The notes beneath the pieces are model-generated. The model was not told the origin of the DNA and did no database searches. It worked only from the letters and a program-made list of their open reading frames with translations. This document shows positions 6,960 to 64,000 of a stretch of DNA of 64,000 bases, in pieces. The DNA comes from Fibrobacter sp. UWB5 (lineage in GTDB: Bacteria; Fibrobacterota; Fibrobacteria; Fibrobacterales; Fibrobacteraceae): assembly GCF_002210295.1 (NCBI RefSeq), contig NZ_MWQH01000003.1, forward strand, positions 186,001 to 250,000. The letters run 5' to 3'. Each line of letters begins with the position of its first letter. Position 1 is the stretch's first letter. Made by a program: the position numbers and the translations under genes.

Positions 6960-8903
6960 ATGTTTGGATTTTACCGATTCGCATCTGTTTGCCCGACGCT
7001 GAAAGTCGCCGATACCGCCTACAATACAGCTGAAATTATTCGCTGTGCAACCGAGGCAATTGACGGAGGTGCCGCCTTCGTCGTGTTCCCGGAACTTTGC
7101 ATTACGGGGTATACCTGTAGCGACTTGTTCCATCAGGAGCTGTTGCTCAAGAAGAGCGTGGAATCGCTCTCGAAGATTGCAGAGGCGTTTGCAGATAGCG
7201 ATGCGGTGATTGCGGTGGGACTCCCGCTACGCATGTTCGGTTGCCTGTACAACTGCGCCGCGTTTTTGCAGAAGGGTAAACTGGTGGCGGTGACGCCCAA
7301 GATTCATTTGCCGAACCAGCGCGAATTTTACGAGAAACGCCATTTCTCGAGCGGTCGCGACTTGCTGCGCGAAAGAACGCTTTGCCCGGTGGAAGGCTTT
7401 GGCGATGTGCCGGTGACGAACTTCTTTACGATTGCGGGGAAGTCTGGCACCGAGGTGCGCGTAGGCGTGGAACTTTGCGAAGATTTGTGGACAGCAGTGC
7501 CGCCGAGTGGCGAGCTTGCCCTGGCTGGTGCGAATGTGATTGTGAACCTGTCGGCAAGTGATGCCTTGGTCGGCAAGCGCGATTACCGTCGCAACCTGGT
7601 GATGAACCAGTCTGCACGTTGCATGGCGGCCTACGTTTATTCATCGGCTGGTGTGCATGAATCGACGACGGACATGGTCTTTAGCGGTCACTTGATGATT
7701 GCCGAGAACGGCAGCATGATTGCCGAAAGCAAACCGTTCAGCCGTGAATCTGAAATTATTTACGCCGATGTCGATGTGGAACGCCTGAACATGCAACGCT
7801 TGAGCGAAGGCTCGTTCCAGGATTTCGACAGCCGCAGTTTCTATGCGCGCGCGGCGAGTTTCGATGGCCTGCGTTCGATTGATAGCCTCAAGTACCGCTT
7901 TGTGGCGCCGATGCCGTTTGTGCCGGGCAACATCGAAACTCGCGACAAGTCCTGCACCGAGATCTTCAATATCCAATGCGCAGGACTTGCGAAGCGACTC
8001 GAAGCGTCGCATTCGAAGCGCGCGGTGATTGGCCTTTCGGGCGGCTTGGATTCTACGCTTGCCTTGCTCGTGGTCGCAGAAACGTTCAAGCTCTTGAAGC
8101 GCCCTGCTTCTGAAATCCTGGTGCTCACGATGCCTGGATTCGGAACGACCAAGCGCACCAAGAACAATGCCGTCACCATGGCGGAACTCTTGGGCGTGGA
8201 ATTGCGCACCGTCGATATTCAGAAGGCTTGCTTGCAGCATTTTGCAGACATCGGACATGACCCAAAAACGCTCAATGTGACTTACGAAAATGTGCAGGCC
8301 CGCGAACGTACGCAGATCCTGATGGATATCGCCAATAGCGTGGGCGGAATCGTCATCGGTACGGGTGACCTTTCTGAAATCGCCCTCGGCTGGAGCACTT
8401 ACAATGCTGACCACATGTCTATGTATGCGGTGAACTGCGATATTCCGAAAACGCTGGTGCGCCATGTGGTGGGCTGGTATGCAGACCATGCCGAAAGCTT
8501 TACTGCCGACAAAAAGACGGCAAAAGAACTTGCTGATGTGCTCCGCGATATCTTGGATACGCCGGTGTCGCCGGAACTGTTGCCTGCCGATGCAAATGGC
8601 CAGATTGCGCAGAAGACCGAATGCATCTTGGGCGCCTACGAAATCCACGACTTCTACCTGTACCATTTCGCTAAGTATGGCGCTGAACCGAAAAAGCTCC
8701 TTTTCCTTGCGAAGTATGCCTTTGCGGGTAAGTTCAGCGACGAAGAATTGGAGAAGGCTTTAGCCGTATTCGTGCGCAGGTTCTTTACGCAACAGTTCAA
8801 GCGTAGCTGTATTCCTGACGGCCCGAAGGTCGGTACGATTTCGCTTTCGCCGCGAGCCGACTGGCGCATGCCCAGCGATTCAAGCTTCAGCGACTGGATG
8901 TAA
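6960..8903 (+). CDS. nadE: Glutamine-dependent NAD synthetase
   Basis: 647-residue two-domain enzyme that amidates nicotinic acid adenine dinucleotide to NAD using glutamine nitrogen. The N-terminal nitrilase-type glutaminase domain (about 1-280) carries Glu in FPELCITGY, Lys in KIHLPNQREF and Cys in VELCEDLW. The C-terminal ATP-pyrophosphatase domain carries GLSGGLDST near residue 360 and the GTGDLSEIALGW stretch. The length matches the long glutamine-dependent type. It follows the activator gene by 29 nt and may be the last gene of the sigma54 operon or use its own promoter. Its link to nitrogen supply fits such control. Confidence 0.95.
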   Translation: MFGFYRFASVCPTLKVADTAYNTAEIIRCATEAIDGGAAFVVFPELCITGYTCSDLFHQELLLKKSVESLSKIAEAFADSDAVIAVGLPLRMFGCLYNCAAFLQKGKLVAVTPKIHLPNQREFYEKRHFSSGRDLLRERTLCPVEGFGDVPVTNFFTIAGKSGTEVRVGVELCEDLWTAVPPSGELALAGANVIVNLSASDALVGKRDYRRNLVMNQSARCMAAYVYSSAGVHESTTDMVFSGHLMIAENGSMIAESKPFSRESEIIYADVDVERLNMQRLSEGSFQDFDSRSFYARAASFDGLRSIDSLKYRFVAPMPFVPGNIETRDKSCTEIFNIQCAGLAKRLEASHSKRAVIGLSGGLDSTLALLVVAETFKLLKRPASEILVLTMPGFGTTKRTKNNAVTMAELLGVELRTVDIQKACLQHFADIGHDPKTLNVTYENVQARERTQILMDIANSVGGIVIGTGDLSEIALGWSTYNADHMSMYAVNCDIPKTLVRHVVGWYADHAESFTADKKTAKELADVLRDILDTPVSPELLPADANGQIAQKTECILGAYEIHDFYLYHFAKYGAEPKKLLFLAKYAFAGKFSDEELEKALAVFVRRFFTQQFKRSCIPDGPKVGTISLSPRADWRMPSDSSFSDWM

Positions 8904-8916
8904 TTGAACTACGTCA

Positions 8917-8938
8917 TTGCGCCCCTATAGGGGAAGCA
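8917..8938 (+). terminator. Hairpin between convergent genes
   Basis: CCCCTATAGGGG core extended by ATTGC/GCAAT arms, between the nadE stop and the convergent small membrane protein gene. The following T-run is weak, so termination is only suggested. Confidence 0.4.
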
Positions 8939-8940
8939 AT

Positions 8941-9273
8941 TTATTGCTTATTAGGCTTCTTGGCGATAAGCTCGTCGAACGTTTTTTCGCGTTCTTCGGG
9001 CTTCTTTAGACCTAGAGCTTCGTCAAAGATATCTGATGCGTCACGTGTATCTACAGGTTCATCGTTAAAATATTCATCTATATAAAATGAATTGCCCCTA
9101 CCGGGGATGAATCCGAAAACTAAGCTAGTTATTGCGGAGATTGCGGTCATAATGATAAATAGAATGAACGCAAAATAATCGTCACTTATAAGAAAAAGAA
9201 ATAGCGCGAGTACAAGGTAAAACCCTGTAAAGACTAACCATGTATATAGCCTACCTTTCATCTTATCGGTCAT
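8941..9273 (-). CDS. Small membrane protein of unknown function
   Basis: 110 residues with two adjacent hydrophobic helices (about 11-30 and 33-55, the second ending before IPGRG) and a charged cytoplasmic-looking C-terminal tail rich in Asp, Glu and Lys. No catalytic motif is seen. The ATG at 9273 is used; a second in-frame Met four codons later is an alternative, and neither has a clear ribosome site. It lies between nadE (convergent) and the parC end, with its own terminator-isolated position. Function cannot be assigned. Confidence 0.65.
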   Translation of the reverse strand: MTDKMKGRLYTWLVFTGFYLVLALFLFLISDDYFAFILFIIMTAISAITSLVFGFIPGRGNSFYIDEYFNDEPVDTRDASDIFDEALGLKKPEEREKTFDELIAKKPNKQ

Positions 9274-9292
9274 GCTATAAATATAAACTAAT

Positions 9293-9318
9293 GAAAAAAG
9301 AAATGCCGTTAGGCATTT
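9293..9318 (-). terminator. Intrinsic terminator after parC
   Basis: AAATGCC-GTTA-GGCATTT stem-loop (9301-9318). On the minus strand it is followed by a run of six T after one C. It separates parC transcription from the small membrane protein gene. Confidence 0.7.
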
Positions 9319-9372
9319 AGTACTTTAGTACCATTCGTGTGACAATTTATTTTTCTTTTTAGGGATTAAAAA

Positions 9373-9455
9373 GGAGATCCCGGCGTCCCCGTTCCGAGGA
9401 CCATATCCACTAAGCAGCAAAGCTGCAAGTGGCTATTGGCAAGGCCGGGATGACA
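9373..9455. repeat. 83-bp palindromic element with nested hairpins
   Basis: The ends GGAGATCCCGGC and GCCGGGATGACA form an 8-bp stem (9377-9384 with 9444-9451). Inside are a GTCC...GGAC hairpin and a CCACT-GCAGC/GCTGC-AGTGG hairpin. The ends match the shorter palindrome at 54193-54221, which suggests one dispersed intergenic repeat family. It sits just after the parC stop. Confidence 0.6.
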
Positions 9456-9461
9456 TCGGGC

Positions 9462-12008
9462 TTAATCAAACAGTTCCGGGTCGGATTCGTCGGAGCCTTC
9501 GTCTTCACTGGAACCGTCGTCGAAACTGTCGGGCGGAGTGATTCGGGTAGCGCGCTTCACCTTCTTGGCGGTAAACTTGCTGCCCAAAGCCTTGTAACCC
9601 TTGACTTCGGCGACTTCGGTCAAGTCGAGTTCTTCCTTCTGGACTTCTCGGCCTACCTGGTATTCCATGAGCTCGCGGGCGTCTTCGGTGGCGAAGAATT
9701 CAATCATCTGCGTGTCCTTGTGGTCAGACACGAGGCTGAATTCCGTCGTCATGGGGCAGCCTTCCAAATTGAAACGCTTGACCATGTAGTTGAAGTTGCC
9801 GCCTTCGAAGTAGAGAATCGTAAAGACCTGTTCCGGATCGAACTTGTGGACGTACTTGATGCCAGTACCCACGAGAATCGGGTCGGCCATGTCGTGGACG
9901 CGGGCGGTGCCGTTTTCCTTGACAATGAGAATTTTGTCCTTTTCGCCGAATTCGCCGATGCGGTCACCCTTCTTTTGGGTGCTGATGATGCCGGCGAGGG
10001 CGTCAAAGTAGAGTACGCGGGCGCCCAAGGTGCTCACGCCCTTACGGACGCGCTTGATGCTCTTGACCGGGTACTTGGTCACAATGTTACCCATGGCGCC
10101 ACGGCCCTTCACGTCGATAGAGCTGAAATCCACTTCGAAGTTGAGCTTGGTGCGCGGCCGCGGCTTCAGCGTGACTTCTACGACTTCGGCTTCGCCGTTC
10201 AGGTTGCTCGACATATACAGAATCTTGCTGCCGGGCTTGCCCTTACCCATAAAGTAATCCTTGTCGCGGGTAACGCCACCCACGTTGAATCGCTTGATAT
10301 AGTAAGCGCCGTCCTTGCCGTCCTGGTGAATCACGTTGTAAATGTGGCGGTCGTCGTCCTTCTTGAATTTTTCGACGAGCAAGATGTTCTTGCCCACAAA
10401 ATCCTTGTCGCTAACCTTGACGACCTTGAAGCTGCCGTCGGCCTTGAACACGATCAAGTCGTCGTATTCGGACACGTCGAAGAGGTATTCTTCCTTCTTC
10501 ATACCGGTGCCCACAAAGCCTTCCTTGCGGTTCACGTAGAGCTTCTGGTTGGCAAGAGCCACGTGCACGGCTTCGACCTTGCCGAACTCCGCAATCTGCG
10601 TGCGGCGTTCCTTGCCTTCGCCATACTTCTTCAAGATGTTCTTGAAGTGCTCGATGGTGTAGTCGGTGATGTGTTCCTGGTTGTACTTGCAGGTCGCGAT
10701 ACTTTCTTCCAGTTCCTTCAAAAGCTGGTCGGCCTTTTCGCGGTCGTAATGGCTTATGCGGCGGATCGGAATTTCGATGAGCTTGCCGATTTCTTCGTCG
10801 GTGATGTCCTTGCGGTGCAGGCGCTTCACGTACGGCATAAGGCCTTCGCGCACGAAGTTGATAATCTGTTCGCGGTCCTTCGCCTTCTTGATGACCTCGT
10901 AGACTTCTTTTTCGATGAAGATCTTTTCGAGGGTGGTCATGTGCCACTTGTCTTCGAGGTGCTTAAGTTCGTTGGCCAGTTCCCATTCCAGGAGCTTGAC
11001 CGTGTGCTCCGTGTTCATGCGCAGAATGTCGGAGACGCCGAGGAATTTCGGGTGCTTGTCGACAATGACGCAGGTGCAGGGAGAAATGGACTTTTCGCAG
11101 TCGGTAAAGGTGTAGAGGGCGTCGATGGCGACTTGCGGGTCGGTGCCCGGCTGCAGGTGCACGAGAATTTCGACTTCTTTACTCGTGTTGTCGTCGACGT
11201 GCTTGATCTTGATTTTACCCTTGTCGTTTGCCTTCACGATGCTTTCGATCAGGCTTACGGTGGTGGTGCCGTACGGGATTTCGCGGATGGCGAGGGTCTT
11301 GTTGTCGACCTTTTCAATCTTGGCGCGCACGCGGACCTTGCCGCCGCGCTGGCCATCGTTGTAGTCGCTCACGTCGATGATGCCGCCGGTAAAGAAATCC
11401 GGGTACAGCGTAAACTTCTTGCCCTTGAGGATGGCGATGCTTGCTTCGCAGAGTTCCCTGAAGTTGTGGGGGAGGATTGAGGTCGAAAGACCCACGGCGA
11501 TACCGTCTACGCCCTGGGCGAGCAAGAGCGGGAACTTGACCGGGAGTGTCACCGGTTCCTGGCTACGACCATCGTAGCTCGGAATCCATTCGGTGGTTTC
11601 GGGGTTGAATACCACATCGACTGCGAACGGCGTGAGGCGGCCTTCGATATAACGGGGGGCTGCAGCACGGTCGCCGGTGAAGGGGTTACCCCAGTTACCC
11701 TGGGTGTCAATCAGCAAATTCTTCTGGCCGAGGCCCACGAGAGCATCGCCGATGGAGGCGTCGCCGTGCGGGTGGTAGGCCATGGTTCGACCGACGATGG
11801 TGGCCACCTTCTGGTAGCGGCCGTCGTGGTTTTCGAAAAGGGAGTGCAAAATGCGGCGCTGCACCGGCTTAAGTCCGTCTTCGTAGTACGGAACGGCGCG
11901 GTCCAAAATCACGTAGCTGGCGTAGTCCAGGAACCACCCGTCGTAGAGTTTTTCAAGGTGGTTAACGTTCGAAAGTCCAAGGGTCGAATCTTTAATTTCT
12001 TCGCTCAT
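9462..12008 (-). CDS. parC: DNA topoisomerase IV, subunit A
   Basis: 848-residue type IIA topoisomerase breakage-reunion subunit. It opens with the GyrA/ParC-type stretch containing LKPVQRRIL and the motif YHPHGDASIGDAL. The catalytic tyrosine is in AAPRYIEGRL near residue 120. The C-terminal part is beta-pinwheel-like but lacks the gyrase box QRRGGKG, which favours decatenating topoisomerase IV over gyrase. The end is an acidic low-complexity tail. The longest frame begins with TTG at 12014; the ATG at 12008 (MSEEIKDS) is preferred. The ParE partner gene is not in the window. Confidence 0.85.
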   Translation of the reverse strand: MSEEIKDSTLGLSNVNHLEKLYDGWFLDYASYVILDRAVPYYEDGLKPVQRRILHSLFENHDGRYQKVATIVGRTMAYHPHGDASIGDALVGLGQKNLLIDTQGNWGNPFTGDRAAAPRYIEGRLTPFAVDVVFNPETTEWIPSYDGRSQEPVTLPVKFPLLLAQGVDGIAVGLSTSILPHNFRELCEASIAILKGKKFTLYPDFFTGGIIDVSDYNDGQRGGKVRVRAKIEKVDNKTLAIREIPYGTTTVSLIESIVKANDKGKIKIKHVDDNTSKEVEILVHLQPGTDPQVAIDALYTFTDCEKSISPCTCVIVDKHPKFLGVSDILRMNTEHTVKLLEWELANELKHLEDKWHMTTLEKIFIEKEVYEVIKKAKDREQIINFVREGLMPYVKRLHRKDITDEEIGKLIEIPIRRISHYDREKADQLLKELEESIATCKYNQEHITDYTIEHFKNILKKYGEGKERRTQIAEFGKVEAVHVALANQKLYVNRKEGFVGTGMKKEEYLFDVSEYDDLIVFKADGSFKVVKVSDKDFVGKNILLVEKFKKDDDRHIYNVIHQDGKDGAYYIKRFNVGGVTRDKDYFMGKGKPGSKILYMSSNLNGEAEVVEVTLKPRPRTKLNFEVDFSSIDVKGRGAMGNIVTKYPVKSIKRVRKGVSTLGARVLYFDALAGIISTQKKGDRIGEFGEKDKILIVKENGTARVHDMADPILVGTGIKYVHKFDPEQVFTILYFEGGNFNYMVKRFNLEGCPMTTEFSLVSDHKDTQMIEFFATEDARELMEYQVGREVQKEELDLTEVAEVKGYKALGSKFTAKKVKRATRITPPDSFDDGSSEDEGSDESDPELFD

Positions 12009-56083: not shown

Positions 56084-56379
56084 AATAATCCTCTTTTTGT
56101 GTCTTTAAAATCTGCGGCGTTACCCGTAAAAAATGCGGGGAAAAAGACGCCAAATTTCGGGCTAAAATGTAGAAAAATTGAGTGTTGACGCGCAAAACGG
56201 TGCCAAAATAGGGCTAAATCTGCAAAAATGACCCCCAAATTGCCGTTTTTGAACTAAAAACGCAAACTTTTAAATGTAGTATATTTCTTATGGGAATCTT
56301 AAAATAATCTTATAAATGGCGATTTTGCGCAAATTTCGCGGTTGTTGTATTTTGGTCAAACGGGGTGTGATGTAAATCC

Positions 56380-56412
56380 CTTTGAATTTTGTGGGGATAA
56401 GTCTATATTATG
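56380..56412 (+). promoter_or_regulatory. Promoter of the InlB-repeat surface protein
   Basis: TTGAAT followed after about 16 nt by TATATT (around 56405), about 30 nt before the gene start. The rest of the 357-nt gap 56084-56440 is AT-rich and shows no gene; its first 100 nt should hold the ilvD promoter on the other strand. Confidence 0.55.
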
Positions 56413-56440
56413 CGCGTCAATAAAAACGAGGTTGGTTTTG

Positions 56441-59400
56441 ATGGACAAGAATATTCTCACGAATAGATTTTGTGGTGTATTTGTATGCGCCATTATGTTG
56501 TTTGTAGCACAGGCTTTTGCCCTTGATTGCAAAACGGGTACGGGCTGGGGCGATTTCCTGACGCAAGAGGCATCCAAAGGTAGCGACGGCTATTATCAGA
56601 TTGATACGCCGGAAAAGTTGGCGTGGGTTTCTTGCAAGGTAACGAACAAGGCTTTAAGTTCAGAAAAATTCAAGTTGACCAAGTCCCTTGATATGCAGGG
56701 GAAACTGTTTATTCCTATTGGGTCGGGTACTGGTGAAGATACTGGATTTAAAGGAACTTTTGATGGTCAGGGCTTTACCATTTCGAATCTTTATGTTAAT
56801 ACATCCGAAATCAACAGTGATATATCCAGTATTACTGGAAAATCCAAGAATGGTATTACTGCCTATGCCCAAAATATTGGATTGTTTGGTGTTCTTTCTA
56901 CAAACGCAAAGGTCAAGAACTTGATCTTGAAGGAAATACAAATATATGCTGCGGCATCTTCTGGAACCACGGGTCTTGGGTCTGATAAGCCGATTTCTGT
57001 GGGTTCTCTTGTCGGCTGGGTTGGTGCGACTGATAAAACGGTTGTAAAAATTGAAAATATCGTGGCGTCAGGTTCCATTGAAACGAGCGGTGCAACAAAC
57101 CGTGTCGGTGGTATCGCGGGAAATGTGAAGCATGTGACGATATCCAATTGCGTCAGTTCCGTAAGCGTGACCGCTAGTGGTGCGAATACCAATGTGGGTG
57201 GTGTCGTTGGGGCGATTCGTAACGATGGTAATGTTACTCTGACATCATGTGTTTATTCTGGAGACCATCTTTACACGGTTGATGGTTCCATCGGTGCCGT
57301 AGCGGGTAGCTATGAAAATTCTAAGGGAACTTTGACAACGGAGAATTTGTACTATTCTGCCAATTATGATGGAATTGGTGTTTTACCCAATGGAAAAGAA
57401 TTTAATACAGAAAAAGTTGCCGATTTGAATTCAGACAGTGTTGTCTGTGCCTTGAATGGCGGTACATGGAATGAAGGTGTATGTACCGGAGACACATCCG
57501 ATGTATGGTCTGTTGGCCAGTCCGATATTTCCATGAACGGTTCTGATGGCTACAAGATTACTTTCAACGCGAATGGAGGTTCGTTTGCTTCTGGAGCAAG
57601 AACTGCGAAAATTCTAGCTAAGAATGCTGCTATTACGGCGGATGAAATTGGTGAGCCTACGCGTACAGGAAAAAAATTTGCCGGATGGGCTGTAACAGCA
57701 GATGCAGATACATCTTCAGATCTGGGTATTGCCCACTCTGCCGTTACTATTTATGCTGTTTGGTATGATTTTTATGAGGTGACTTTTAAGACTGATTCTG
57801 AAGGGGATTTCTCCGACGCAACATTCCCTGATGGAAGTAAAATCAAGAAAATTTCTGTGGCAAAGCATGGCACGGTTTCTGTAGATGGTTTTTCTGTTCC
57901 CACGGTATATGAAATTGGAACTGGTGCCAATAAGGTGAAATACTACTTTACAGGTTGGGCTTATGAGCCAAAGTCATTTGGTAAGGATGATGTGATTGGT
58001 GCAAATGACACGCTTCACCTTTCTGCCATTGATGTGACGAAACCTGTTGTTCTGTATGCTGTATGGACTAAGGCTACGACATACTCTGTCACTTTTGATG
58101 CCTCTTTGCATGGAAAGACGGATGTCCATTTTGTTCGGATGGTTACTGAGGGGGAAAAGGTGTCTCGTCCTGATACTGTCATTACGGATGATGGATACAA
58201 GGTTGTTGGATGGTGTGTTGTTGAAAATTGCACAGAGCAAAACGAATATTCCTTTGCTGACACGCTAAAGGGTAATCTGGTACTCCATGCAAGGTGGGAA
58301 ATAGAATCCTATTCGATTGTTTATGAGTTGGATGGTGGTACAAATGCCTCTACGAATCTAACCACATATAATGTCAACAGTGGCGACATTGTCTTTGCTG
58401 CTCCGACCAAGGATGGGGCTAAGTTTGAAGGCTGGTTCTATGATGCAAATCTGACTAATCCTGCGACTCAGATTGATTCAGGCTCTACGGGCGATAAGAC
58501 CATTTATGCCAAGTGGACTGTTGCGACCTACACTATCCAGTACCTTTCCGGGACTACGATTTCGGCAACGGTGCCCGGCGCTACTAAAACTTATGGCGAT
58601 ACAATTACGCTTAGGGATGCTCCTCCTCAGTTCGCTGTTGGTGGGTGTACTTTCGATGGCTGGTCTAAAGTGGATTATGGTCAGGAAGGATATAAAGTTG
58701 ACTATGCATTTGGTGCTAAATATGGAGACAATGCAAACCTCAAGTTGTTCCCGCATTGGACTTCTTGCGGAGAATATACTATAACTTACGAATTGTATGG
58801 TGTTGAGGCGACAAATAGAAATTCTTCGACCTATACAGGTCCGGAAAAGGTTAAGTTGGTAAATGCGTTTGTTTCTGGTAACCCTGTAAAGATGGATGAT
58901 TGGTATTTGGATCCAAACTTCAAGACATCTGTTCGCTATCTCCAAGGTATTAATAAAAATACGACTCTTTATGCAAAGTGGTATAATGTAATTACATTCC
59001 AGCCCGGAACTAAACTGAAAAACTTCAACAAAGGCGCTGGCAAGGTAGAAAAGCAGAAAGATCTGAATAAAACGTATACCTTGGGTATACCGAATACTAA
59101 ATATGCGATTGAAAACTACACCCTTGATGGCTGGTCGTTGACCGATGGTGGCGAAAAAGTGTATGATGTGGGATTCGATTATACGGATAACGTAAATATC
59201 ACACTGTATCCGCACTGGGTGGAAAATCCTGTGGTAACCCATTATGGTGCTGTGACGATTGAAAAATATTCCGACAAGGCTATTGCAAAAATTGATGGCG
59301 TATCTGAAGAAACGGTAAATATTCCTACGGCAGACAATGTTGTAGTTGACCAGATTATCTTTAATCGAGACTTTTCTGGTGGCTTAAAGTCAACCGTTAT

Positions 59401-60070
59401 GTTCCCCTTTACGGTAAGTTTGGATGAAGTTAGTGGCGGTGAGTTCTGTGAATTTAAGGCAATGGAATATTCGTCTGAAACGAAAAAATGGACTTTCCGT
59501 GTTGAAGAGCCTGTAGATAACGAATTGAAAGCAAACAAGCCGTACATCTTTATTGCTGACCCGGATTCTAAGAATATCACGTTTAATTTGAGTAAACCGG
59601 TTTCCTTTAGTACGGAAGAAATGAATCCTTCTGTGGATAATCGTTGGATCTTCAAGGGCTCGTATGAAAAGATTGTCTTGAATGAATCTCATCCGGATTG
59701 GACCTACGGGTATGGTTATTCTGCTGAAGATAAAAATGGCTTGACAAAGGGTAAATTCTTTAGATTTAAGACTAGTCAGTTTACCGAAGCTACGCTGCTT
59801 CCCATGAGAGCTTACCTGGTTTACGACGTGTCTCTAGCATTGGCGAAATCGAAAGAAGCATATAATTATGCACCTGAATCCTTCCCTGATTTAGTGGATG
59901 TAGAAATTGTAAGTCAAAAGGGTATTGTTATTGGTGGCGGAGAGCTGAACACCAAAACTGGTGAGCTAAAAATGGATCGTTGGTATGATTTGTCCGGCCG
60001 TCGACTCAATGCTAAGCCCACGACACAGGGAACATATTACTATAATGGTAAGCGTGTAATTGTGAGGTAA
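56441..60070 (+). CDS. Large surface protein with GLUG and InlB B-type repeats
   Basis: 1209 residues. Signal peptide (about 1-28, AQAFALD). The first 350 residues hold a GLUG-like beta-helix (GTFDGQGFTISNL, NIGLFGVLS). From about 360 to 930 come InlB/Listeria-Bacteroides B-type repeats, each with a strand, Gly-rich turn and [FY]xGW and YAxW core. A beta domain follows, and the C-terminal tail WYDLSGRRLNAKP...YYYNGKRVIVR resembles a type IX sorting signal. Likely exported, cell-surface adhesion or sensing. GAGG lies about 10 nt before the ATG. Its stop is 3 nt before the first small peptide gene, whose ribosome site lies in its last codons. Confidence 0.85.
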   Translation: MDKNILTNRFCGVFVCAIMLFVAQAFALDCKTGTGWGDFLTQEASKGSDGYYQIDTPEKLAWVSCKVTNKALSSEKFKLTKSLDMQGKLFIPIGSGTGEDTGFKGTFDGQGFTISNLYVNTSEINSDISSITGKSKNGITAYAQNIGLFGVLSTNAKVKNLILKEIQIYAAASSGTTGLGSDKPISVGSLVGWVGATDKTVVKIENIVASGSIETSGATNRVGGIAGNVKHVTISNCVSSVSVTASGANTNVGGVVGAIRNDGNVTLTSCVYSGDHLYTVDGSIGAVAGSYENSKGTLTTENLYYSANYDGIGVLPNGKEFNTEKVADLNSDSVVCALNGGTWNEGVCTGDTSDVWSVGQSDISMNGSDGYKITFNANGGSFASGARTAKILAKNAAITADEIGEPTRTGKKFAGWAVTADADTSSDLGIAHSAVTIYAVWYDFYEVTFKTDSEGDFSDATFPDGSKIKKISVAKHGTVSVDGFSVPTVYEIGTGANKVKYYFTGWAYEPKSFGKDDVIGANDTLHLSAIDVTKPVVLYAVWTKATTYSVTFDASLHGKTDVHFVRMVTEGEKVSRPDTVITDDGYKVVGWCVVENCTEQNEYSFADTLKGNLVLHARWEIESYSIVYELDGGTNASTNLTTYNVNSGDIVFAAPTKDGAKFEGWFYDANLTNPATQIDSGSTGDKTIYAKWTVATYTIQYLSGTTISATVPGATKTYGDTITLRDAPPQFAVGGCTFDGWSKVDYGQEGYKVDYAFGAKYGDNANLKLFPHWTSCGEYTITYELYGVEATNRNSSTYTGPEKVKLVNAFVSGNPVKMDDWYLDPNFKTSVRYLQGINKNTTLYAKWYNVITFQPGTKLKNFNKGAGKVEKQKDLNKTYTLGIPNTKYAIENYTLDGWSLTDGGEKVYDVGFDYTDNVNITLYPHWVENPVVTHYGAVTIEKYSDKAIAKIDGVSEETVNIPTADNVVVDQIIFNRDFSGGLKSTVMFPFTVSLDEVSGGEFCEFKAMEYSSETKKWTFRVEEPVDNELKANKPYIFIADPDSKNITFNLSKPVSFSTEEMNPSVDNRWIFKGSYEKIVLNESHPDWTYGYGYSAEDKNGLTKGKFFRFKTSQFTEATLLPMRAYLVYDVSLALAKSKEAYNYAPESFPDLVDVEIVSQKGIVIGGGELNTKTGELKMDRWYDLSGRRLNAKPTTQGTYYYNGKRVIVR

Positions 60071-60073
60071 AAG

Positions 60074-60199
60074 ATGGAAAATAAAAAGACATACGAAAAA
60101 CCGGAAATGGAAATTGTAGAAATGCCCTGCAACTCAGCATTATTAGATTGTAGTACTGATCCAGAAAGTTGTTTGCCGGATAATATTAATGTTGAGTAA
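60074..60199 (+). CDS. RiPP precursor peptide candidate 1
   Basis: 41 residues, MENKKTYEKPEMEIVEMP at the start. The N-terminal leader-like part has Tyr7-x-x-Pro10, the motif bound by PqqD-like recognition domains of lasso-type systems. After LLDC (Cys26) the core-like tail has the Cys26-x6-Cys33 pair and acidic residues and ends NINVE. GAGGT in the last codons of the upstream gene serves as ribosome site. No enzyme or other domain is seen. It shares leader, LL-Cys and Cys spacing with candidate 2 two nt downstream. Modification type is unknown. Confidence 0.6.
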   Translation: MENKKTYEKPEMEIVEMPCNSALLDCSTDPESCLPDNINVE

Positions 60200-60201
60200 A
60201 T

Positions 60202-60366
60202 ATGAATAAGCAGAAAGCTACATATGAACCGCCGAAGATGGAAGTATTTCCTCTTCTAAGTCGAACAGATTTACTTTGCTCGTCTGGAGATTCTAATTGC
60301 ATCATCTTGAATTACAATGAGAATCCGGTCAATTTGGACTCCAGTCACAAAGGCGATCTTACGTAG
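60202..60366 (+). CDS. RiPP precursor peptide candidate 2
   Basis: 54 residues, MNKQKATYEPPKMEVFP at the start. Tyr8-x-x-Pro11 gives the same leader motif as candidate 1, and Cys26 and Cys33 fall at the same positions in LLCSSGDSNC. A longer polar tail of 21 residues follows, ending SSHKGDLT. The start is 2 nt after the stop of candidate 1; its ribosome site is weak. The two probably arose by duplication and diverged in their cores. Function as a secreted modified peptide is inferred from the neighbouring genes. Confidence 0.58.
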   Translation: MNKQKATYEPPKMEVFPLLSRTDLLCSSGDSNCIILNYNENPVNLDSSHKGDLT

Positions 60367-60397
60367 GACAAGGTTCTTTGCTTGATTAGGTTGAAAG

Positions 60398-60427
60398 ATG
60401 GGCTTCTTGAAGAATGCCCATTTTTTC
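60398..60427 (+). terminator. Terminator between precursor genes and enzyme genes
   Basis: ATGGGC/GCCCAT stem with an inner TTC/GAA extension, followed by seven T. It lies 30 nt after candidate 2 and 14 nt before the nucleotidyltransferase gene. A readthrough attenuator would make precursors more abundant than enzymes. Confidence 0.75.
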
Positions 60428-60440
60428 TATCTTTGCGGCC

Positions 60441-61559
60441 ATGGGTTTAATTCTGAAGAAAACAGACAAGCTCTTGTTTAAACTGTTGCAGCTTGCGCTC
60501 GATACGACGGGCGCTTTGCAGGGGCTTGAGGAGGCGCCTTCCGAAGAAGACTGGAAGGCTATTTATAAGCTGGCGAAGCGCCAGAGTGTTTTGGGCGTCG
60601 TTTTTATCGCGGTCAAGAAACTTCCGGAAAATTTCAGGCCTGCAAGGGCTCTTTTGTTGCGCTGGTCCATGGATGCCGAGGGCACCGCGGGCATGAACAA
60701 GCTGTTGAACCTGGAGGCGGCGCGCTTGACTCGGGTTTTCGAGGGCGCGGGTCGCAAAAATGCAATCTTGAAGGGCCCCGCCAATGCAAGACTTTATCCG
60801 GATCCGCAGAGTAGGCAGTGTGGCGATATCGACATTTGGGTCGAGGGCGGCCGCAAGGGTGTAACCGAATTGCTTTATAAGTTGAATTTGTTGAATGCGG
60901 AAACTGATGACCATGCTTATTCGCGGCACCATATTCACTTGCCCCAAAATAAGGATGGAGTCACGGTGGAGGTGCATTTCAAGCCCGCGTCGGGAATCCC
61001 GTTCCGCAATGGAGCGTTGCAGAAGTTCTTGAACGAAGAAATCCGTAAGGCAGAAATGGTGCCCGAGGGCTTTTATTCTCCGTCAATCAAGTTTGCGCTC
61101 GTGATGCAAATGGCGCACTTGCAGCAGCATTTTTATAGCGGCGGTCTTGGTCTTAGGCAGTATACGGATTACCTGATGCTGCTTAGACATTCTACCGAAA
61201 GCGATCGTAGTGCTGCGTTAGTTGTCATGAAACGCCTGAGCATGATGCGCGCCTGTGGAGCCGTGATGTGGATGCTGCAAGAGGTGTTTGGGCTTGAACG
61301 CGGCTTGATGCTTTGTGCGCCGGATCGCTGGCGTGGTGAACGCCTTTTGAAACTTGCCCTTTCGGGCGGAAATTTTGGTCAGTACAAGACGGAACCTAAG
61401 CCCAAGAATGTTTTTGTACGCTGGTTCAAGGACCGCTTGCAGGCTATTACATGGTTGACATTTGATCCGGTGAATGCGGTTTTCAAGGAACTCAAGTACT
61501 GGCGAGCGACGATTTCGCTGATTCCTGTGCGCATTAAACGCAGGAGAATTGCTTTATGA
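60441..61559 (+). CDS. Nucleotidyltransferase-family enzyme of the peptide cluster
   Basis: 372 residues. A nucleotidyltransferase (NTP_transf_5-like) core shows NAILKGPANARLYPD (about 107-121), the metal motif QCGDIDIW with D129 and D131, and VEVHFKP. The C-terminal half is helical. Members occur in lasso and other RiPP clusters, where they are thought to add nucleotidyl or sugar-type groups to the peptide; that role here is inferred. The ATG at 60441 follows the attenuator closely. The end overlaps the next gene by 4 nt (ATGA). Confidence 0.8.
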   Translation: MGLILKKTDKLLFKLLQLALDTTGALQGLEEAPSEEDWKAIYKLAKRQSVLGVVFIAVKKLPENFRPARALLLRWSMDAEGTAGMNKLLNLEAARLTRVFEGAGRKNAILKGPANARLYPDPQSRQCGDIDIWVEGGRKGVTELLYKLNLLNAETDDHAYSRHHIHLPQNKDGVTVEVHFKPASGIPFRNGALQKFLNEEIRKAEMVPEGFYSPSIKFALVMQMAHLQQHFYSGGLGLRQYTDYLMLLRHSTESDRSAALVVMKRLSMMRACGAVMWMLQEVFGLERGLMLCAPDRWRGERLLKLALSGGNFGQYKTEPKPKNVFVRWFKDRLQAITWLTFDPVNAVFKELKYWRATISLIPVRIKRRRIAL

Positions 61560-62443
61560 TTCAATCGGCTTGTTACAAGGTGGCGGGGCATGTGTTTAAG
61601 GTGTCCGCGTCTGCAGACCTTTGCGATAAATTGTTCAGTGAATGCATGGATAACTACGAACCGTTTGCGGTTCCGGCGGTGCATGATTCCGAATGTCTTT
61701 TTGTGATGGATGTTGAATGTGGCGATGCTCCGGAATATACCGAAGAACTGCGCCAGGATGAAGAAGGCCAGCAGATTCTCTGCGGAACCATTCAAGACAA
61801 GTCGGTGTTCGATTTTCGCCTGCATTTCAAGATGACGGGCGTGCTCGTTTGCGCTAAAGATTACAAGACGGCCAAGTTGATTGTTCCTCCGGATGAACCG
61901 CTTTCTTTGTTCAAGTTTGCGGTGAACAATGCCATGATGGTTTTGTATGCTATCGCCTCGGCTTCTTGCAATACGGCCTTGTTCCATGCGGCGGTCGTGA
62001 GTTACAAGGATTGCGGCTATCTGTTCTTGGGCAAGAGCGGTACGGGCAAGAGCACTCATGCTAGACTTTGGCTTAAGCATATTGCAGGCACGGATCTTTT
62101 GAATGACGACAACCCGGTGGTGCGCATTTTTGAAGGAAATCGTGCGGTCGTTTACGGCTCGCCGTGGAGCGGCAAGACTCCTTGCTACAAGAATCAGGAA
62201 TTTGCATTGGGTGGCTTTGTGCTGCTTTCGCAGGCACCGTACAACAAGATTGTCCGCTTGCGTGGCGTGCAGGCTTTTGCTGCGCTTGTTCCCTGTATTT
62301 CGGGCAAACGCTGGGAACGCGTGATTGCTGATGGTTTGCATAAGACCGAAAATGCACTTGCCATGAATGTGCCGGTATGGCATTTGGAATGCTTGCCTGA
62401 CGAAGAGGCCGCGCGAGTCTGCAAGGAAAGCGTTGTGTTATGA
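61556..62443 (+). CDS. HPr-kinase-like peptide kinase
   Basis: 295 residues. The C-terminal half is like the HPr kinase/phosphorylase P-loop domain: FLGKSGTGKSTHARLWL (G159-S166) and the acidic LLNDDNPV (D184, D185). The N-terminal half lacks the HprK sensor fold. Such stand-alone kinases phosphorylate the C-terminal Ser of some lasso peptides (paeninodin type). It is translationally coupled to the genes on both sides (ATGA overlaps). Confidence 0.82.
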   Translation: MIQSACYKVAGHVFKVSASADLCDKLFSECMDNYEPFAVPAVHDSECLFVMDVECGDAPEYTEELRQDEEGQQILCGTIQDKSVFDFRLHFKMTGVLVCAKDYKTAKLIVPPDEPLSLFKFAVNNAMMVLYAIASASCNTALFHAAVVSYKDCGYLFLGKSGTGKSTHARLWLKHIAGTDLLNDDNPVVRIFEGNRAVVYGSPWSGKTPCYKNQEFALGGFVLLSQAPYNKIVRLRGVQAFAALVPCISGKRWERVIADGLHKTENALAMNVPVWHLECLPDEEAARVCKESVVL

Positions 62444-62898
62444 TTGGCGCTCCCAAAGATGATGCGATGATTCTCGCTGAGGCGATTCGCCTGGTGGGCG
62501 AGGGAGTCGAAGTGACCTTCCCGGTGAATGGGCGGAGCATGCGCCCGTTTATCGAGGGTGGCCGCGACAGCGTAGTGCTTGTTCGTCCGACAAATGTGAA
62601 GCCGATGGATGTCGTGCTTGCCAAAACCGAGGATAATCGGTACGTGATTCACCGTGTTTTGGAAATGGCGGGCGAGCGTGTGACTTTGATGGGTGACGGC
62701 AATTTGCAAGGCCGTGAGCATGCGGAATGTAAACAAATTTATGCCAAAGTAACGCATGTTGTGCATCCAAATGGTTACAAAAGATTTCTTTACACGCCTT
62801 TTATACAATTTGTCCAAAAAATGTGGGTGAGCCTTTTACCTTTGCGTCGTTATTTGCTTAAATTATATACAGTCTACATCCGTATTCGGAATTTCTAG
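62440..62898 (+). CDS. S26-type signal-peptidase-like protease
   Basis: 152 residues. Nucleophile Ser33 in VNGRSMRPFI, His72 in YVIHRVLEM and Asp87 in MGDGNLQG fit the Ser-His-Asp arrangement of SipW-like (S26B) peptidases instead of the Ser-Lys bacterial type. A hydrophobic and basic C-terminal segment (about 115-152) may sit on the membrane. It probably removes the leader or processes the exported peptide. ATGA overlap with the kinase gene. Confidence 0.78.
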   Translation: MIGAPKDDAMILAEAIRLVGEGVEVTFPVNGRSMRPFIEGGRDSVVLVRPTNVKPMDVVLAKTEDNRYVIHRVLEMAGERVTLMGDGNLQGREHAECKQIYAKVTHVVHPNGYKRFLYTPFIQFVQKMWVSLLPLRRYLLKLYTVYIRIRNF

Positions 62899-62912
62899 AA
62901 GGAGAGTACACC

Positions 62913-63182
62913 ATGCACATCAAAAAAGGATTTGTTCTGCGCGAAGTTTGCGGTGAACAGGTAATTATGGGCGAAGGCGTTGGCGCTCTCGATTTCGGGA
63001 AGCTCCTTTGCCTGAACGAAACGGCGTCTTGGCTTTGGACGCGCGCAAGCGAACTCGGCGAATTTACGGTCGAAGCGCTAGCCGATGCGCTCTGTAGCGA
63101 ATACGACGTTGCCGCTGACGATGCTTTGAACGATGTCAAGGGCATTGTTTCGCAGTGGCAAAACGTGAACGTAGTCGAATGA
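62913..63182 (+). CDS. PqqD-like RiPP recognition element protein
   Basis: 89 residues. The PqqD/RRE fold shows LDFGKLLCLNETASWLW followed by a helical C-terminus. Such proteins bind the leader of a precursor peptide (often through YxxP) and present it to modifying enzymes. A strong AGAAGGAGAG site precedes the ATG. Overlaps the exporter gene (ATGA). Confidence 0.88.
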   Translation: MHIKKGFVLREVCGEQVIMGEGVGALDFGKLLCLNETASWLWTRASELGEFTVEALADALCSEYDVAADDALNDVKGIVSQWQNVNVVE

Positions 63183-64000
63183 AATACCTTTCGTGGTTAT
63201 GGAACAGGACGGATGGATTCCGCCTGAACATTGCGCTCCGCATTGTATTTGGTGTGGGGCGAATTTCGCTTGGGTTGTTGATGGTATGGCTCAGCAAGCG
63301 CTTTATAGACGAAACGATTCGCACGGGTAGTCAAGATGATATTGTGCGCATGATTGCGTTGCTTGTGGCGACGGTCGTGGGCGCGATTGTCTTGCGCATT
63401 GTGTTTTATTATATGACGAACGTGGCCATGGTCCGCCAGTCGAACCGTTTACGCTTGCAGGTTTTCGAAGGCCTGTTCTCTCGCAAGCTTTACGCGGGGG
63501 CGGAACTGCATTCGGGCGATGTGGCTTCCAGACTTTCGAAAGATATCGAGTCGGTGTCGACCACGACCATGGAAACATTGCCGCAAATGATTGTGACGGC
63601 GCTACAGCTGGTGGGCGCGTTCCTTTTGATGCGCTGGTTTGACCCGCGGCTTGCCTGGGCCTTGCTTTTGCTTACGCCGGTGGCGATTGTGCTCGGAAAG
63701 CTGGTGTCTCGCAAACTCAGGAACATGACGCTTGCGATTCGTGAACGCGAATCGAAAATCCAGATGCAGGTGCAAGAGGGCGTGGAACACAATGTGCTCA
63801 TGCGCTCGCTCGAAAGTGAAAACTGGGTGGCGGGCCGCTTGGGTGACATGCAACAGCACTTGGAAAGCGATGTTTTGCGCCGTACGCGATTCACTACGCT
63901 TTCGCGGTTTGCACTCGGGTCTGCCTTTGGGCTGGGTTACTTGTTGGCCTTTATTTGGGGCGGCCTCGGGCTGCGCGATGGGGCGATTACGTTTGGTATG
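63179..64000 (+). CDS. ABC exporter, N-terminal membrane part (cut by window end)
   Basis: The first 274 residues of an exporter, running off the window. Six membrane helices are expected; visible ones include about 20-45, 60-85 and 140-185. The transmembrane domain has the exporter-type VARxSKDIESVSTT and coupling region REREIKIQMQ-like sequence. The nucleotide-binding domain should follow beyond the end. Starts in the last codon of the PqqD-like gene. It most likely exports the mature peptide. Confidence 0.85.
   Translation, partial: MKYLSWLWNRTDGFRLNIALRIVFGVGRISLGLLMVWLSKRFIDETIRTGSQDDIVRMIALLVATVVGAIVLRIVFYYMTNVAMVRQSNRLRLQVFEGLFSRKLYAGAELHSGDVASRLSKDIESVSTTTMETLPQMIVTALQLVGAFLLMRWFDPRLAWALLLLTPVAIVLGKLVSRKLRNMTLAIRERESKIQMQVQEGVEHNVLMRSLESENWVAGRLGDMQQHLESDVLRRTRFTTLSRFALGSAFGLGYLLAFIWGGLGLRDGAITFGM

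Follow-up and report, generated by a model that had tools for sequence, protein, structure and literature searches.

The window, a 64,000-nt stretch of DNA from a rumen-type Fibrobacter, contains five coupled genes and two small genes that we interpret as parts of a hub-and-spoke, RiPP-like system, in which a single hub probably matures and exports many precursors encoded in trans. The precursor family and the hub are well supported; the chemistry and the role of a large partner protein encoded upstream of the small genes are inferred. The features are as follows (positions in the window).

56441..60070, + strand: partner gene (1242-aa ORF), large secreted-type protein carrying Listeria-Bacteroides repeats plus the peptide-linked C-terminal tail
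60074..60199, + strand: precursor peptide A1, 41 aa, YxxP leader; profile match E=8e-14
60202..60366, + strand: precursor peptide A2, 54 aa, YxxP leader; profile match E=4e-12
60396..60426 (about), + strand: intrinsic-terminator-like hairpin with a T run, lying after the peptides and before the hub
60441..61559, + strand: NTP_transf_5 nucleotidyltransferase-like protein (PF14907, 2.4e-44)
61556..62443, + strand: HprK/PEPCK-fold kinase, fold from an AlphaFold model; weak Pfam match (E=0.0035)
62440..62898, + strand: S26/SipW-like serine protease (TIGR02228, 2.4e-6, under its curated cut-off)
62913..63182, + strand: stand-alone PqqD-type RiPP recognition element (RRE; PF05402, 1.2e-12)
63179..64000, running to about 64801 past the window, + strand: ABC exporter, 540 aa (PF00664, 3e-25)

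The hub genes run in the order NTP_transf_5, HprK-fold kinase, S26-like protease, PqqD-type RRE and ABC exporter. A preliminary description of this DNA had claimed that they are coupled by three ATGA overlaps and one strong ribosome site; the overlaps lie at 61556, 62440 and 63179 and the ribosome site, AGAAGGAG, just before 62913. The five protein types that it named were borne out by matches to NTP_transf_5 (E=2e-44), PqqD (E=1e-12) and ABC_membrane (E=3e-25), those to S26/SipW and HPr kinase being weaker. All hub proteins fall into known families, and the antiSMASH label for such a locus would be 'RRE-containing'. The ORF of the NTP_transf_5 gene starts at 60414, inside the hairpin, so the ATG at 60441 is the likelier start. 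Its motif GDIDiWV is kept across the genus Fibrobacter. Two further NTP_transf_5 genes in the genome (C1:629661 and C10:33218) adjoin neither peptides nor hub parts, and some Fibrobacter hubs (L042, L043, L044 and L053) contain two such genes. The S26-like protease has conserved S34, H70 and GDGN; an N-terminal membrane helix was not evident by eye. The PqqD protein, encoded in the same cluster as the precursors, is the only PF05402 match in the whole genome. No match to a C39 peptidase domain was obtained in the scanned part of the exporter, and four hub proteins had no defence match in PADLOC. Sequence searches against solved structures gave no useful match for PqqD and only weak matches to HPr kinases and signal peptidases for the kinase and the protease.

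Past the window edge, the exporter gene ends at about 64801 and is followed by a 179-aa gene and then by convergent housekeeping genes. The preliminary description had advised reading beyond position 64000 for a B2 protease, a cyclase or another maturase; inspection of 18 kb of this DNA revealed no recognisable maturase. About nine relatives likewise have the 179-aa gene (from 64819; L002:2820-3359) next to their hub region.

Upstream of the hub, both of the tiny tandem genes claimed for this region are present at the positions listed. Besides the end of the exporter, the earlier account needs correction on two points. The partner gene ending at 60070 belongs to the same unit as A1 and A2, A1 beginning 3 nt past its end, and the hairpin sets the small genes apart from the hub genes. 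This hairpin folds with −17.7 kcal/mol (z −3.6; 1 of 200 shuffles was equally good); it was missing from the output of a simple terminator scan. The partner ORF opens at 56342 (56342-60070), and we shifted its start by eye to the ATG at 56441, the likely start. Its product has a signal-peptide-like N terminus (judged by eye), a Pfam Flg_new match (5e-42) and the C-terminal tail TGELKMDRWYDLSGRRLNAKPTTQGTYYYNGKRVIVR.

RRE and precursor detection had been recommended; besides the PF05402 match, a profile built from 23 peptides, mostly hub-adjacent, found 11 members in this genome, nine of them outside the window. Across the genus Fibrobacter, 56 genomes encode members of the family. Differences between close pairs were distributed 32/28/90 over codon positions 1/2/3, and identical columns made up 87% of the leader versus 72% of the core (p=7e-4). 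Because the family recurs in 56 genomes, with differences mostly at third codon positions, a conserved leader and a variable core, the two small genes are, as judged from these sequence patterns, genuine genes. They have the form of RiPP precursors, being short with a conserved leader and a variable core. The leaders of A1 and A2 share YxxP, then Met and, further on, LL; YxxP has been documented as a motif that RREs recognise (PMC12710340). The Y and P of the leader were partly fixed by sequence selection, and an LL-like filter was applied to part of the set. A K-K ahead of YxxP is conserved, though absent from the selection criteria, and a Ser at Tyr+20, also outside these criteria, is found in 44/56 Fibrobacter and 22/25 Prevotella precursors. 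None of five peptides scanned matched a family in Pfam or NCBIfam.

A single PqqD and a single kinase of the hub family are present in this genome, versus 11 YxxP-leader peptide genes; A1 and A2, the pair noticed in the preliminary description, are thus two of 11 precursors that one hub probably serves. The 11 peptides are encoded at seven places, behind eight partner genes, and in 10 of the 11 cases the preceding gene codes for a large protein that ends in a shared C-terminal tail. The eleventh peptide is preceded by a PA14/C25-like protein, whose tail is divergent. At locus L104, a PA14-domain protein with a weak C25 peptidase match spans 7741-9546 and a peptide gene 9599-9721. A profile of the tail (44 positions) gave seven matches in this genome at E≤4e-21, all of them peptide-linked and one of them the partner protein in the window, and the next match had E=0.01; this result is partly circular, because the profile was built from peptide-linked proteins. 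Less circular is the count centred on tails in other genomes, where a YxxP gene lay downstream in 28/36 loci. Conversely, peptide-centred loci in relatives had a tail protein upstream in 33/39 cases. Units of partner gene plus peptide are tandemly repeated in several relatives (L079, L082, L047 and L050).

Hub and peptides also co-occur within the genus. Among the Fibrobacter genomes, 53 have both, one has the hub without peptides (G039, in which peptides were undetected), three have peptides without the hub and four have neither (Fisher p=3e-4, shared ancestry ignored). Seven genomes are without the standard kinase, and of the three with peptides, two are incomplete assemblies (G017 and G041) and the third (G026) retains PqqD. 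Counts of tails and peptides per genome were correlated (rho 0.80, n=61, shared ancestry ignored). Searches of 40 other genomes of the phylum yielded no peptides, no tails and no kinase save for four weak matches. Peptide genes adjoin 23/45 hub loci; in the rest, the pattern applied detected no YxxP gene next to the hub. PqqD and the ABC gene stand beside the kinase in about 30 loci of the genus; elsewhere in the genus, PqqD-ABC is on a separate contig, sometimes together with S26, which suggests that hub parts can work in trans.

The same arrangement recurs in rumen Prevotella; in about 45 Bacteroidales loci, the order is mostly kinase-S26-PqqD-ABC, with NTP_transf_5 optional. The peptide search here covered 18 hub-positive genomes, of which 17 had peptides, scattered in numbers of 1-25 per genome. 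Many of these peptides lie behind proteins that end in a pattern like GxYIxNGKKVxxK; strict patterns undercounted the Prevotella tail variants (14/27 by pattern, about 21 by eye). In a tree of 60 kinases, Fibrobacter was separate from Prevotella, and the identity of 54-60% across the phyla suggests an old transfer. In some Bacteroidales hubs (L173, L185 and L192), the ABC transporter is another one, sharing 29-36% identity with the window exporter. The claim of a RiPP-like precursor and maturation cluster, and the conservation of the small genes near homologous Fibrobacter clusters by which it was to be judged, are supported in Fibrobacter and rumen Prevotella, with the small genes either beside the clusters or in trans to them.

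The near one-to-one operon pairing with tail proteins, and the distance that often separates the peptides from the hub, are also what one would see if the small proteins were unmodified accessory subunits of the tail proteins (chaperones or secretion helpers) and the hub acted elsewhere. We consider this very unlikely, given the YxxP leader together with a single RRE, the co-occurrence of hub and peptides, and the peptide genes that adjoin about half of the hub loci.

The kinase was modelled with AlphaFold. A model based on six sequences was poor (pLDDT 58.6), but a repeat with 60 input sequences reached pLDDT 94.9 and has the PEPCK/HprK fold (Z 14.7 over 239 residues and rmsd 3.7 against PEPCK; E about 1e-5 against HPr kinases). 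Residues H144, K165, D184 and D185 are invariant among 60 homologues. His-Lys-Asp-Asp residues have been reported for the PadeK-type kinases that tailor lasso peptides (PMC9266682), and the hub kinase appears to fit this motif as matched by position, PadeK itself being unaligned. PadeK modifies a C-terminal Ser. Such a residue ends 1/56 Fibrobacter precursors, A and P being the commonest last residues; therefore, the target of the hub kinase must differ from that of PadeK.

These data do not support the likeness to lasso-type systems noted in the preliminary description. Stand-alone PqqD, YxxP leaders, an HprK-like kinase and NTP_transf_5 are all known in lasso clusters; a YxxP leader with a B1/PqqD-type RRE is found here, and there are weak matches to lasso PqqD models. 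Against this, the B2 protease family Transglut_core3 (PF13471) is unmatched in the whole genome, including the 18 kb past the window edge, and inspection of the cluster ORFs and of the same 18 kb revealed no Asn-synthetase-like cyclase. The C-terminal Ser is nearly always missing, and the precursor core has no conserved position for ring closure. Since the B2 family was not found in the genome, this is not a canonical lasso cluster, and it is extremely improbable that it is a lasso cluster with its B2 protease and cyclase encoded at other genomic sites.

We propose instead the following order of steps for the hub-and-spoke system. PqqD would bind the KKxYxxPxM leader and thereby recruit the trans-encoded precursors. 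The HprK-fold kinase would phosphorylate the precursor. The conserved Ser at Tyr+20 is a possible site, suggested because the C-terminal Ser of PadeK substrates is missing here. NTP_transf_5, where present, might add a further group by analogy with PsmN of pseudomycoidin, an NTP_transf_5-annotated protein credited with hexose addition to a phosphorylated lasso peptide. The S26-like protease would remove the leader, cutting near LLxxS, its specificity being unpredictable from its consensus, and the ABC protein would export the acidic core. Since most peptide genes immediately follow the gene of a shared-tail protein, it is probable that the product works together with, on or next to this large partner at the cell surface.

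The partner tail resembles type IX sorting domains by eye, and the genome encodes SprA, the type IX translocon. Known sorting-domain families were unmatched at E≤1, TIGR04183/Por_Secre_tail having no such match in the proteins scanned. For Fibrobacter cellulases, a basic C-terminal domain that overlaps TIGR04183 has been proposed as the type IX signal (PMC6851124). A bolder version of the surface role, in which the processed peptides are attached to or assembled with the upstream surface proteins as a peptide-based decoration or anchoring system in Fibrobacter and rumen Prevotella, is unlikely, and we raise it tentatively.

Alternatively, the hub could make a freely secreted bacteriocin or signal, with the tail protein as immunity, receptor or delivery partner. 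A conserved leader with a variable core, an ABC exporter in the operon and the tandem duplication of partner-peptide units in relatives would all suit such a product. The cores are strongly acidic (26% D/E, 5% K/R), unlike most bacteriocins, the hub contains no regulator or immunity gene, and a genome may encode up to 25 peptides; a free product is thus a minor possibility, if not a negligible one. Because the peptides are constantly paired with one class of large secreted-type protein, we infer that a role at the surface is more probable than that of a free antibiotic.

Among the closest known systems are those of the phosphorylated/glycosylated lasso peptides paeninodin (PadeK) and pseudomycoidin (PsmK/PsmN). 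These are the systems with which the hub shares the HprK-like kinase with His, Lys, Asp and Asp, NTP_transf_5, a PqqD-type RRE, an ABC exporter and the YxxP leader. It differs from them in having an S26-like protease, with no B2 found in the genome and no cyclase in the cluster, and precursors that are mostly in trans and without a C-terminal Ser. The hub kinase and PqqD also match ScmC and ScmD of the SynChlorMet cassette weakly, far under curated cut-offs; unlike that cassette, the hub has no radical SAM gene (by inspection). In prochlorosin-type RiPPs, a single maturation enzyme acts on many precursors whose genes lie at other genomic sites. The one-to-many arrangement in trans is common to both systems, whereas prochlorosins rely on LanM chemistry and the present system on a kinase and a protease, with precursors behind a large secreted-type protein. 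Clusters labelled 'RRE-containing' by antiSMASH have been reported in rumen isolates (PMC13289728); any RRE cluster fits this label, which implies no mechanism, trans precursors or tail-protein pairing. In the open-licence literature, we found neither this lasso-free gene combination with trans precursors and genome-wide tail-protein pairing, nor a paper linking type IX secretion with RiPP precursors or joining PqqD with Prevotella and the hub genes.

If the hub-and-spoke reading is correct, two major rumen genera contain many orphan small genes that can be recognised as substrates of a single hub, and their link to large secreted-type proteins is directly testable in culturable rumen isolates. 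It would also place the RRE, the HprK-like kinase and NTP_transf_5 outside lasso peptides, so a RiPP-like family may have a kinase as its main maturase. The hub kinase has at least 579 relatives in the species collection. Its gene matches as two pieces in three genomes (G028, G036 and G056), as in a frameshift or insertion, and G031, a genome in which neither peptides nor tail proteins were detected, carries a divergent NTP/kinase/PqqD locus (L088).
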